A stretch of 64,000 nucleotides of DNA from Devosia rhodophyticola (GTDB lineage: Bacteria > Pseudomonadota > Alphaproteobacteria > Rhizobiales > Devosiaceae): NCBI RefSeq assembly GCF_028816475.1, contig NZ_CP118247.1, forward strand, positions 744,001 to 808,000, read 5' to 3'. Shown here in pieces: positions 18,216-63,049 of the stretch. The notes under the pieces were generated by a model. The model saw nothing but the letters and a program-made list of their open reading frames with translations. It was not told the origin of the DNA and searched no databases. Made by a program: the position numbers and the translations under genes. Position 1 is the stretch's first letter; each line of letters opens with the position of its first letter.

Positions 18216-18614
18216 GACCGTATGGCGATGGAGGGTCAGCACCCCCCCACGCAAAACTTATCCCCACGCCCAAAGCCTCTGCCACAATAACACTCACTCC
18301 CCACGCGATTGCGGGGTCGCGACGAACGGTCCGTGGGAGAGCAGATGGGTGGGAGGCGGTCGCGCGCTCCTGGGTCCGTGTGACGGGTTTGTCCGGCCAG
18401 GCTGGAACAAAGCGCTCCATAGTCCTGAAAGCCCATCGCATGCGGCGAGACCAGTCTCGTAACTTAAAAATCACATGAGGCCGGTTCTCGCCGCATGTCG
18501 CAATCTTTTAAACCGCAGGCCTCGTGCCGGGCGGGATTTGGTCGTGGGCAAAATGCAAAGCGGGTCGGAAACCGCGTGGCGATCCCCTATGCTGGCCCAA
18601 AGGAGAATCGCTGC

Positions 18615-20393
18615 ATGCCGATCCGGCAATTACCTGATGATCTGATCAACCGCATTGCGGCGGGCGAAGTCGTCGAGCGCCCCGCAAGCGTTGTCAAGGA
18701 ACTGGTCGAAAACGCCATTGATGCAACCGCTACGCGCATTGTCATTACCACCGCTGGCGGTGGCAAAAGCCTTATCCGCATCGAGGATGATGGCCACGGC
18801 ATGGATGCGCGCGATCTGGTGCTTTCGGTCGAGCGGCACGCCACCTCCAAATTGGGTGACGCCGAGCTTGACGATATTCGCACCCTCGGTTTTCGCGGCG
18901 AGGCGCTGGCCTCCATCGGATCGGTGGCCGAACTGACCATTTCAACCCGCACCAAAAACGCTGAAACCGGTCTGCGGCTTAATGTTTTGGGCGGCAAGAA
19001 GCATGGCCCCCTGCCCCAGGCGATGAATCGCGGCACCATCATCGAGGTCAAAAATCTCTTTGCCCATATCCCTGCCCGGCTGAAATTCCTCAAGACCGAC
19101 CGGGGCGAAACCGCAGCGATCACCGACGTGGTCAAGCGTCTGGCCATGGCCAATCCCGAAGTCCATTTCGTTCTTAGCGGATCGGACCGCAGCACAACCA
19201 ACTGGCCTGCCGTCACCGGCGATGGCGCGCTCGCCGGACGGTTGGCGCAAGTCATTGGCGACGATTTTGCCCAGAACGCGGTCCGGCTGGCCACCACCCG
19301 ACACGGCGTTGTCGTTGCCGGTCTGGCGGGCCTGCCCACCTACACCCGCGCCAATTCGCTCAGCCAGTTCTATTTCGTCAATGGCCGCTCGGTGCGCGAC
19401 AAGGTCTTGATGGGGGCGGTTCGCGCCGCCTACGCCGATTTCACCTTCCGCGACCGGTTTCCCGTCATTGCGCTCTATCTGGCGGTCGATCCGGGCGAGG
19501 TCGATGTCAATGTACATCCCGCCAAGGCCGAATTGCGGTTTCGCGATGCCGGTGGCGTGCGCAGCGCCGTCATTCGTGCCATCGGCGAAGCCTTGACCCA
19601 TGCCGGTTTCAAGGCTTCGAGCAGCGTTGCCGAAGATGTCATCGGAGCGTTTTCCGCGCCGGGTCACGACGCCGCTGCCTCCGCCCCTCGCTCTGGCCCC
19701 TTGTCACCCACGCCCTTTGCTGCAACGCCATCAGCGTATGCGTCGCGCGATTATCCAATCGCCGCAGAGCGCGGCTTTGCCGGGTTTACTGAACCGAGCG
19801 GGCGGGTCGAGGACAGCGAACCGGCGGGGCTTGTCGACTATCCGCTCGGCACCGCCCGCGCCCAGATGTTTGACAATTTCATCATCGCCCAGAATGGCGA
19901 TGGGCTATTGCTGGTTGACCAGCACGCCGCCCACGAACGCCTGGTTTATGAGCGTTTCAAGACCCAGTTGGCGTCCGGGCCGGTGCCCAGTCAGGCCCAA
20001 CTTATTCCGGTGGTTATCGAACTGCCCGAGGAAGATTGCGTCCGCCTTGAAGACGCCGCCGCCGACTTTGAGCGCTTTGGTCTTTATATCGAGCGCTTCG
20101 GTGCCCGCGCCATTGCGGTGCGCGAAACCCCGGCCTTGCTCGGGCAAACCGATATTGAGGGCTTGATCCGCGATCTTGCCGATGGGTTGGCCGAGTGGGA
20201 AACCACCACTGCGCTCAGTGACCGGATGGAGGCCATTATCGGGCGCATGGCCTGTCATGGCTCGGTCCGTTCGGGCCGCCGCCTGCGGGTCGATGAAATG
20301 AATGCCCTTTTGCGCGATATGGAGGCGACCCCCATTCGGGCCAATGTATTCACGGCCGCCCGACCTATGTCGAACTCAAGAAGCGCGACATAG
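18615..20393 (+). CDS. mutL: DNA mismatch repair protein MutL, C-terminus frameshifted as sequenced
   Basis: MutL couples mismatch recognition to strand incision. ATG 18615 has AAGGAGA eight bases upstream. The GHKL ATPase motifs are E32-NAIDA37, D59-GHGM and G92-FRGEAL98. The C-terminal domain carries the endonuclease motif D435[11 protein letters not shown] (DQHAxxExxxxE), so this is a nicking MutL. At the run of five C (20329-20333) the frame is wrong: adding one C restores the expected [23 protein letters not shown]... and moves the stop from 20393 to 20419, giving a normal protein of about 601 residues. As written, the conserved C-x-HGRP motif, which contributes to the metal site, is lost. 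This is either a sequencing error or a real mutator allele. The corrected end lies three bases from the convergent edd stop. Confidence 0.93.
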
Positions 20394-20422
20394 AAAGGCT
20401 GTTCGGGCGGACGCGCTAGCCT

Positions 20423-22237
20423 CTATTGAAAGACGCTGGCGCCCCGGTCGGCCACGCCAACCAGACTGCGCATGCCCGCGAACAATTCGCGCCCCATGCC
20501 AAAATGCTGGGGACGCAGATCCTCGGTGGCCGGGGTGCGTGAGAAGAATTCGCGCTCGTCGCCAAGGAATTGCAGCGTTCCTTCATTGGCATCGAGCCGG
20601 ATCATGTCGCCATCGCGGATCTTGGCAATCGCGCCGCCGTCCATGGCTTCGGGCGTCATGTGGATCGCCGCCGGCACCTTGCCCGACGCCCCCGACATCC
20701 GCCCGTCGGTCAGCAGCGCCACCTTAAAACCCCGATCCTGCAACAGCCCCAGCGCCGGCGTCAGCTTGTGCAACTCCGGCATGCCAATCGCCCGCGGCCC
20801 GGAAAACCGCACGACAGCGATCAGATCGCCGGTCAGTTCACCCGCCTTGAACGCTTCCTGCAAGCCTTCCTGCCCATGGAACACCCGGGCAGGCGCTTCA
20901 ACAACCCGATGCTCGGGCTTGACCGCCGACACCTTGATGACCGAGCGACCAATATTGCCGGTCAACAGCTTGAGCCCACCCGTTGGCTGGAACGGAGCCT
21001 TTGCCGAAGCGAGAACCTTGGGTAGCGCCGACTCCTTGGGAGCCGGTTCAAAGCTCAACTTATCCTCGATCAGTTTGGCTTCGACACAATAGCCAGACAG
21101 GCCTGTTCCCCAGACGGTCTTGACGTCTTCATGCAGATGTCCTGATCCAAGCAGTTCCTGAATGAGAAAGCCCATACCACCCGCCGCGTGGAAATGGTTC
21201 ACATCAGCAACGCCATTGGGATAGACCCGCGCCAGCAAGGGAGTGGCATCGGACAGGTCGGACATGTCGTCCCATGTCACCGTCAGCCCAGCCGCCGCTG
21301 CGATGGCGATCAGGTGCATGGTGTGGTTGGTCGAACCGCCTGTCGCATGCAACCCCACGAGGCCGTTGACGATGGCTTTTTCGTCAATGACATGGCCAAC
21401 GGGGGTATAATTGTTGCCCTGAGCCGAAAGCGAAAGCGCCCGGCGTGTCGCTTCCTGGGTTAGCGCATCGCGCAGTGGTGTGCCCGGATTGACGAAGCTG
21501 GCGCCCGGCAGGTGCAGACCCATGATTTCCATCAGCATCTGATTGGAATTTGCGGTGCCATAAAATGTGCAGGTGCCCGCCGAGTGGTATGATTTCGCCT
21601 CTGCCTCAAGCAGTTCGGCGCGCCCGACCTTGCCCTCCATATAGAGCTGGCGAATGCGTGATTTCTCGTCATTCGGCAGTCCCGAAGGCATTGGCCCGGC
21701 GGGCACGAAAACGGCGGGCAAATGCCCAAACGTTAGAGCTCCAATCAACAGGCCAGGCACGATCTTGTCGCAAATCCCCAGAAACACACCGGCATCAAAC
21801 ATATTATGACTCAGCGAAATGGCCGTCGCCATGGCAATGACATCGCGCGAAAACAAGCTCAAATCCATGCCCGGCTGGCCTTGAGTGACGCCATCGCACA
21901 TGGCTGGTACGCCGCCCGCGACCTGTGCGGTTGCGCCGATCTCACGTGCCGCTGCCTTGATGATATCGGGATAGGTTTGGTACGGCTGGTGCGCCGACAG
22001 CATGTCGTTGTAACTGGTGACGATACCCAGATTAAGCGTCTTGTTCCCCGCCAGAGCGGCCTTTTCGGAGGGGCTGGAGGCGGCAAAGCCGTGGGCAAGA
22101 TTTCCGCAGGACAGTCGGGAGCGATAAACGCCAGCTTCCTTGGCGGCATCAAGCCGATTGAGATAATCGCGTCGCGACTCGCGGCTACGGTCTGCGATGC
22201 GGTCAGTTACGTCCTGAATGGCTTTAAGCACAGTCAT
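20423..22237 (-). CDS. edd: Phosphogluconate dehydratase
   Basis: Edd dehydrates 6-phosphogluconate to 2-keto-3-deoxy-6-phosphogluconate, the first committed step of the Entner-Doudoroff pathway, using a [4Fe-4S] cluster. The 604-residue protein has the IlvD/Edd architecture, with [19 protein letters not shown] and [20 protein letters not shown] 22237 is supported by AAGGAGC. It is the last gene of zwf-pgl-edd. The aldolase gene (eda) is not in the window. Confidence 0.96.
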
Positions 22238-22298
22238 GGTTGCTCCTTTGTGGGCGGACGGAGCGGCCGAGGCGACCAATTGGGGATCGCCTCAGGAG

Positions 22299-46908: not shown

Positions 46909-46959
46909 AGCAACACCCTCCGTGTGCATGTGACAATATGGGCGACAAGCCCCTGATCC

Positions 46960-47145
46960 GTGCTGGCAGGTCTCCTGACTCGCGGTGGATACAGCTCCCC
47001 TCGCCTTCCCGGCCAATCGGCCAGTGGCATGTGAGAAAAGCGCACCGCTTACAGTTGCGGGGGCAGTCCCGGTTTTGGCCCCTGATGGGTAATCCGCACC
47101 GTGTTCCCTTTTGATCCTGTTGCCACCTGGGCGCGAGGAACCATC
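46960..47145 (-). ncRNA. Cobalamin riboswitch upstream of cbtB
   Basis: Reading leftward, the leader contains the ordered conserved blocks of the cobalamin aptamer: GGTTCC, then CAAAAGGGAACACGGTGCGG, GGGACTGCCCCCGCAACTGT with AAGCGGTG, the B12 box CATGCCACTGG, GGGAAGG, and the closing AGTCAGGAGACCTGCC. About 50 bases with a small GGGC/GCCC hairpin separate it from the cbtB ribosome site. Bound adenosylcobalamin is expected to repress the cbtB-cbtA-cobW-cobN-cobO operon. Confidence 0.95.
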
Positions 47146-47216
47146 ACTCCTTTGGTTTGGCATGGCGCGAAGGTCAGGTCAATGCAGTTGGCCGCTGACG
47201 ATGGATTGACGGCGTG

Positions 47217-58144: not shown

Positions 58145-59120
58145 TCAGTCTGCGAAAAAACCGATATGGGCATCGAGCCCGCTGATCGGAAGTGCTGTGG
58201 TCAGTATTGTTTTTGCAGCGGCGCTATCGCGGTCCATGGCGGCAATCAGATCGGGCAATCCTGAAAAGACCTCCTGTCCGCGAATATGGCCTACCAGGGC
58301 AACAGACAGGGTTTTACCGTAAATATCCTCGGAAAAATCGAACAGGTGCGTTTCAAACGGCGGTAGTTGATTGTTGAACATTGGTTTGCCATAGGCGGCA
58401 ACACCATTGAAGCGCCGATCACCGAGCATGGCGCGCACGGCATAAACGCCCTGAGCCAGATGAAAGCCGGGCGGCGTGCACAGATTGGCCGTGGGATAGC
58501 CCAGCTCGCGACCACGGCGATCACCCTCAATCACCACCCCATCAATGAACCAGCGATAGCCGAGCAGTTGATTGGCCCTGTCGACATCCCCTCCCCCAGC
58601 GCGGCGCGGATCAGCGAGGAAGAAATGATATCGACCCCCTCCCCGATCAGATCGAGCGTTTCAACACCAAAGCCTTCGGCGATGCCCGAAGCCTTGAGGA
58701 AATCGGGGTGCCGCGACGGCCACGACCGAAATGGAAATCGGAGCCGACGATGACGCCCGACACTGCCAGCGCCTTGACGAGAAAACGTGAGACAAAATCT
58801 TCGGCCTCGATCTGGGAAAAATCGCGGTCAAACGTCATGACAACAATGCCATCGAGCCCCAGCGCCTTGGCCAGTCGGGCCTTGGCGTCGCCATCGGTCA
58901 GGCGGAACATGAAGGGTTCGGGCGCAAAGACATCGCGCGGATGCGGCTCGAAGGTCAGGACAATGGCGGGCACGCCCTGTTCGGCAGCGCGCGTCTTGAG
59001 CGTTTCCATGACGTGCTGATGGCCGCGATGAAAGCCATCGAAATTGCCGATAGCCACCATAGCGCCGCGCATGGCGTCGGGGACTGCATCAAGATTTGAC
59101 AGGCGGATAAAGTCGGTCAC
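58145..59120 (-). pseudogene. ribF: Riboflavin kinase/FAD synthetase with two frameshifts as sequenced
   Basis: RibF makes FMN and FAD from riboflavin and is normally essential. The FAD-synthetase half (start 59120) has VAIGNFDGFHRGHQHV and VIVGSDFHFGRGRRGTP; the riboflavin-kinase half (ending 58145) has RRGRELGYPTANL and YGKTLSVALVGHIRGQ. They lie in different frames. One base is missing at the G/C run 58705-58708, after which the expected DFLKASGIAEGFGVETLDLI reads in a second frame, and another is missing in the runs 58588-58597, after which DVDRANQLLGYRW resumes in a third. Restoring both gives one normal RibF of about 325 residues. A genuine double null is unlikely for this gene, so sequencing error is favoured. 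Confidence 0.9.
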
Positions 59121-61393: not shown

Positions 61394-61621
61394 GAGCGGT
61401 CTCGGGCTCCATTGCCGAAGATTCGGTTACTTCTCTTAGCATCATGGTTAAGAGCGCAAAAGCGGACTGTGGCCGCTATGCAGTATTGTTTTCATCGAGC
61501 TCAAGGCAAAAGCGGAACGGATTATTTACTCTGTTCGTCAACAATCGGGAAACCAAGCGGGCGGTGCGCCCACATCGAACCTTGGCCGAAATTGAAATAC
61601 GACGAACAAGGACTGGGCTCC

Positions 61622-63049
61622 ATGCCGAAGCTGAACCAAGCCGATGCTGCCAGAGGTGGTGCCCTGTTGCTGATCGAAGGCAATGCGGACAGCGCTCAAT
61701 TGCTGGTGGCCAGCCTGACCGAGTGCCTGTCTGGCGCGCCGGTAATCGTGGCGGTCAGCAGTGGAAAGCAGGCGTTGGCCAGCCTTCGGGCCGAGCAGTT
61801 CGATATTGTGTTGGCCGATCTGGCAAGTCTGGGCGATATCAGCGCGCGCACTGAAGACGTGGTGGGACGGCTGGTCAAGCTGGCCAACGGCGCACTGGTT
61901 CTGGCCCTTTCGGACGGGGCATCGGTTTCAGGGGCCGTGGCGGCCATGCGGGCGGGCGCCCATGATTATGCGGTCAAGCCGCTCAATGGCGCGGCGTTGG
62001 CCGCGCGGATCGGGGAGATGGCCGAGCGGCATGGCAAATGCCGGACGCTATCGGTTGAGGCGACGCCGCAGATCGGGGTTGCTGATTTTGCCGGATTTAT
62101 CGGTTCGTCGAGCGCCATGCAGTTTGTCTATGAGCAGATCGAGCGCATTGCGGCGTCGGCCGCGCCGGTGTTTATCACTGGGGAGAGCGGCACCGGCAAA
62201 GACGTTTGCGCCGAGGCGCTGCACAACAAGGGACCAAGGGCCGGCGGCCCGATCATTGCCATCAATTGTGCGGCCATACCGCGCGATCTAATGGAGAGCG
62301 AATTGTTTGGCGTGGCGCGGGGGCTTTTACCGGCGCACACGAAGATCGCAAGGGCGCGGCGGAACTGGCCGATGGTGGCACTCTATTTCTTGACGAGATC
62401 GGGGAAATGGACCTGTCGCTGCAGACAAAGTTATTGCGGTTTTTGCAGACGGGCACCTTGAGCCGGGTCGGCGAAGCGGGCGTTCGGCAGGTGGATGTGC
62501 GACTTGTCTGCGCCACCAATCGCAACCCGATGCAGTTAATCAGCGAGAAGAAATTCCGCGAAGACCTGTTTTATCGCCTGCATGTGCTGCCGATCCATTT
62601 GCCGCCTCTACGCCAACGACCGACCGACATTCTGGTTCTGGCGCGGCACTTTCTGGGGCGTTACGGCCAGGAAGAGCGCAAGAATTTTTCCGGGTTCAGC
62701 CCGGAGGCCGCCAATTGGCTGATATCGGGCGAATGGCCAGGCAATGTGCGCCAGTTGCAAAATCTGGTGCGGCGACTTGTGGTGATGTTTGATGGTGGCG
62801 AAATTTCGGCCAGCATGGCCAAGGCAGCCGACATTGAGGGGCAGCATCGACCGAACTCGCCCGGGGCCAGCAATGATGCCCGAACAAAGCTGTATCCTGC
62901 CGATGTGGCAGCAGGAGCAACGTATTATCGAAAATGCGGTCGCTCAGTTCGGTGGCAATATTTCGCTGGCGGCGGCGGCGCTTGAGATCAGCCCCTCAAC
63001 AATCTATCGCAAGCGTCAAAGTTGGGCTGAACTCAGCCGCGTTGCCTGA
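61622..63049 (+). pseudogene. Sigma-54-dependent response regulator (FlbD/NtrC-like), two frameshifts as sequenced
   Basis: The gene encodes an N-terminal receiver-like domain (about 1-125, with a reduced acidic pocket), an AAA+ sigma-54 activation domain (Walker A GESGTGKD) and a C-terminal Fis-type helix-turn-helix ([20 protein letters not shown]). Reading shifts by one lost base at the five-G run 62319-62323, after which [16 protein letters not shown] and [10 protein letters not shown] continue in another frame. It shifts back by one extra base near 62860-62866, restoring [19 protein letters not shown] and the stop at 63049. Correcting both gives one protein of about 475 residues. ATG 61622 follows AGGA. 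The neighbouring TipF-like gene suggests flagellar control. Confidence 0.85.

Follow-up and report, generated by a model that had tools for sequence, protein, structure and literature searches.

Does the mutL gene of this Devosia rhodophyticola genome lack its conserved C-terminal end in the living organism, or only in the assembled sequence? The window, which is the whole 64,000-nucleotide stretch of DNA that we analyzed, belongs to a one-contig assembly (G000). Near its 3′ end, mutL changes reading frame at a short run of C, next to a convergent neighbor gene. The listed open reading frame that contains mutL begins at 18495, upstream of the ATG at 18615. The features concerned are the following:

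18615 to 20393, + strand: mutL reading frame as written, 592 aa, start codon ATG at 18615, matching NCBIfam MutL and Pfam MutL_C
20329 to 20333, + strand: five-C run at the mutL break, the junction being set by the MutL of relatives
20336 to 20419, + strand: conserved MutL end (CIHGRP and LFGR) in another frame, stop codon TAG
20423 to 22279, − strand: edd, phosphogluconate dehydratase, the convergent neighbor (TIGR01196, 1000.7 bits)

The Pfam domains HATPase_c_3, DNA_mis_repair and MutL_C were found in the MutL protein. MutL_C was complete at residues 416–557 (window 19860–20285), upstream of the break. The NCBIfam profile NF000953 matched the protein as written up to profile position 586 of 611, whereas its match to the MutL of a relative (G069) reached position 611. 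When the G069 MutL was used as the query, its residues up to 596 aligned in one frame and residues 596–624 in the other, 93% identical, and the net shift at the junction was −1. The last ~20 residues of mutL as written are out of frame. The conserved end, 27 codons long, lies one frame back from the main frame and finishes with TAG at 20417–20419, leaving three bases between this stop and edd. The original prediction, made from the sequence alone, had described a frame break at the five C of 20329–20333 with the conserved end one frame back and a stop at 20419 beside edd, and both statements were confirmed. It had also named the lost base as a C of the run. That one base is missing agreed with our alignment, but its identity is less certain than had been stated. 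Across the loci compared, the Thr codon at the break was ACG 22 times, ACC seven times, and ACT and ACA once each (31 of 46 given loci were readable, and some genomes occur twice). The third base of this codon varies, and therefore the sequence does not tell which base was lost.

The protein was compared with the domains and motifs of a MutH-independent endonuclease MutL (PMS2-like). The N-terminal ATPase and MutL_C domains were present, and the DQHA(X)2E(X)4E motif was in the main frame, intact as predicted. The ACR motif site in the mutL frame consists of a 10-residue stretch followed by H. The C-x-H-G-R-P motif was not in the same frame; CIHGRP sits in the other one, most likely because of an assembly error. 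The protein as written does lack CxHGRP, as had been stated. The domain order, the in-frame DQHAxxExxxxE, and the presence of CxHGRP and LFGR in the DNA resemble the MutL of Aquifex aeolicus (NF000953). A difference is that the CxHGRP end is here in another frame, most likely an artifact.

The original prediction had further argued that CxHGRP is needed for the nuclease site, and this reasoning is sound for the His and the Arg of the motif. In the available parts of the reports on Aquifex MutL, changing the His of CPHGRP abolished nicking (PMC2744016), and the Arg is catalytic (PMC10366529). The same part of the former describes a Thermus MutL Cys mutant that retained endonuclease activity (PMC2744016). 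Nicking would very likely be lost in a MutL without this entire end.

We examined 121 loci for the two MutL motifs (L001–L121, some genomes being present twice). The DQHA-type motif and CxHGRP shared one open frame in 108 of them and were in different frames in three, two from G000 and one from its nearest relative, G025. In the remaining ten, a pattern match was absent for one or both motifs: four had CxHGRP without the first pattern, one was without CxHGRP, and five, which had entered the set through edd matches, had neither. Of 61 genomes, 58 had a MutL_C match; the domain was undivided in 57 of these, among them G000, and split in two in G025.

Two frames that meet at a C run with a shift of −1 could be joined by programmed −1 frameshifting during translation. 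The classical heptamer rule for such recoding is X XXY YYZ. The letters around the C run read GCG ACC CCC ATT, which is no such heptamer, and the motifs are split in only the three loci above while 108 of 121 keep them in one open frame. We regard recoding of mutL as vanishingly unlikely.

The 27 codons of the tail were compared with those of relatives. There were three synonymous and no non-synonymous codon differences from G025, nine and two from G069, and 14 and three from G082, respectively. The tail is undecayed, and this codon pattern points to purifying selection up to now or nearly so. A gene that is intact in the living cell would be expected to have such a tail.

mutL was not the only broken gene in G000. 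Seven genes with at least two references were broken: mutL, mutS, infB, ribF, a rarA-like ATPase gene, a parB-like gene, and a sigma-54 response-regulator-like gene. For the rarA-like gene and the regulator, the NCBIfam matches behind the names fell short of the curated cut-offs. Two of the seven, besides mutL, are in the window:

58157 to 59120, − strand: ribF (riboflavin kinase/FAD synthetase), breaks near 58585 and 58700
61511 to 63037, + strand: sigma-54 response-regulator-like gene, breaks near 62323 and 62862

infB and ribF are essential in Escherichia coli and should be so here as well. The single infB copy of G000, encoding IF-2, is split at G000:C1 ~1311950–1311977 into two adjacent pieces in different frames, one open over 734 aa and the other over 276 aa; the gene was whole in all six other genomes searched. 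A further doubtful junction was observed near the start of this infB (L241:4711–7762). G000 had a single RibF flavokinase domain, located in a 171-aa open frame vs 328–468 aa in five relatives, and the N-terminal part of ribF was spread over two other frames. The mutS gene was split inside MutS_V (L122, L123; C1:1609955–1610514). Of ten other genomes searched, nine had MutS_V undivided. The exception was G062 (L152; 84% complete), where the domain was divided among three open frames, likely through assembly errors as well. Open frames as long as in relatives were found in G000 for dnaE, ileS, valS, leuS, EF-G, and EF-Tu.

The junctions had a common feature. Nine of ten in the seven genes, mutL included, were in the phase of one lost base; six of these were exactly −1, and three agreed only modulo 3, the doubtful infB junction being one of the three. 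The two junctions of the sigma-54 response-regulator-like gene differed, one being in the one-base-lost phase and the other in the opposite phase. A run of at least four equal bases was located at most 15 bases from nine of the ten junctions as a raw count, and the main infB junction adjoins a run of only three G. A word-specific cause was also sought: the most depleted and most enriched five- and six-base words of G000 did not match the break sites. The counts of CCWGG and GAWTC were low in G000.

Mismatch-repair defects favor indels that change run length. If the mutL lesion were real, MutL would be without CxHGRP and would not nick, the organism would be a mutator, and the other short-run breaks would be its consequences. 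The lesion does remove the motif whose His and Arg serve nicking in Aquifex MutL, as far as the available parts of the two reports cited above go (PMC2744016, PMC10366529). Against it, the single-copy core genes infB and ribF are broken too, and the mutL tail shows no decay. The break in mutS also speaks against it, as a second hit should bring no further advantage. Nine of ten junctions being in the one-base-lost phase argues against such a lesion as well. A genuine lesion is very unlikely. That a living lineage is truly without MutS and MutL through small indels, persists as a long-term mutator, and expresses infB and ribF by recoding is more doubtful still.

The original prediction was right about the gene, the motif, the missing base, and the tail. 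It had ascribed the loss to the gene itself, and this part is doubted because six other genes of G000 are also frame-broken, mostly in the one-base-lost phase. An assembly error is far more likely, because core genes that a cell should need (infB and ribF) are also broken.

To count broken genes, we relied on a test of the genes in 359 kb of G000 against reference genes chosen by conservation. With at least one reference, 11 of 170 genes were broken in G000 vs 13 of 606 in five comparison genomes (p 0.009), where four of the 11 rest on a single reference genome and the 13 are flags of the scan. With at least two references, the counts were 7 of 130 and 5 of 315 (p 0.046). Leaving out mutL and mutS gave 5 of 128 with at least two references (p 0.16) and 9 of 168 with one reference (p 0.035). 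Earlier runs, in which references picked by length still admitted antisense frames, gave 5 of 68 in G000 vs 2 of 164 with another reference choice, and 7 of 93 vs 6 of 346 in a second run (p 0.009), or 5 of 91 vs 6 of 346 without mutL and mutS (p 0.056). For core-gene regions, with noisier references, the numbers were 5 of 38 in G000 and 10 of 129 in the comparison genomes. The excess of broken genes in G000 is modest and depends on the criterion; therefore, the broken core genes carry the argument for an assembly error.

A scan that took all open frames of at least 100 aa as references was rejected. It produced much noise, since G+C-rich genomes such as these contain long antisense open frames that are mistaken for genes. 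In four comparison genomes, it flagged 9 to 17 candidate breaks each, none backed by all three others, and in the window, it flagged 12, of which five were backed by three or four genomes.

Alternatively, the lineage might be host-bound and its genome truly decaying, in which case mutL and the other broken genes would be recent pseudogenes. The 7 of 130 broken genes with at least two references are in line with decay. The G+C content of the window, 0.588, is below that of four relatives (0.630–0.645), yet it equals that of G025 (0.587). Decay should spare core genes like infB, the mutL tail is well preserved, and the genome size of 3.47 Mb is inside the range of one-contig relatives. We consider decay extremely unlikely.

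The completeness of G000 was 93.44%. Of 14 other genomes in the genus with a single contig, 13 reached 98–100%, and only G025 was lower, at 91%. A one-contig genome whose completeness falls a few percent short of its one-contig congeners should be viewed with caution.

G025 was itself full of breaks: 49 of 158 tested genes were broken, and G000 was much cleaner. Its mutL is broken elsewhere, with GAGCCT where the window has GAACT, and its mutS is broken outside MutS_V. Among single-base indels with clean flanks, 37 of 71 in which G025 is longer span GAGCCT or its complement; in the reverse direction, 0 of 27 do. Thus, the two sister genomes both have a broken mutL, the position of the break differs between them, and either break looks like the rest of the errors in the assembly that contains it. 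In several G025 loci (L113, L124–L127, L192–L202), a recurrent extra base produces GAGCCT, often where G000 has GAGCT. GAGCTC was rare in G025: counting both strands, it occurred 10 times in 298 kb, compared with 44 times in 244 kb of G000. The GAGCCT excess of G025 may reflect a DNA-modification motif at which base calling goes wrong.

These results suggest, with high probability, that G000 is a one-contig assembly with uncorrected single-base indels and that the mutL break is an artifact in an ordinary, intact gene. Most of the indels would be lost bases, of the kind left in long-read assemblies after too little polishing, and one base would have been dropped at or beside the five-C run of an otherwise intact mutL. 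Judging from the sequence, MutL in the living organism most likely has the full C-terminal metal site and would nick independently of MutH. As expected for long-read artifacts, breaks were present in unrelated single-copy core genes (infB and ribF; also mutS and others), and most were one-base losses. Gene-fragmenting indel errors of long reads have been described (PMC12007338), and the available part of that report is alike in breaks that are mostly in the one-base-lost phase and scattered among unrelated genes, and in lowered completeness. According to the same part, most deletion errors in one MinION assembly came after runs of four to five equal bases (PMC12007338). For G000, we infer both the read type and the cause, be it sequencing or consensus calling.

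As biology, the locus is minor, since the mutL is an ordinary one. For practice, before a mutator is called from a one-contig assembly, the lesion should first be compared with the frame breaks in the single-copy core genes of that assembly.

Two further features of the window were recorded, the second of which matches the PADLOC candidate defense models PDC-S06 (best E 5.8e-57):

46948 to 47160, − strand: cobalamin riboswitch, 117.2 bits
15643 to 17907, − strand: AAA_13 ATPase of 754 aa
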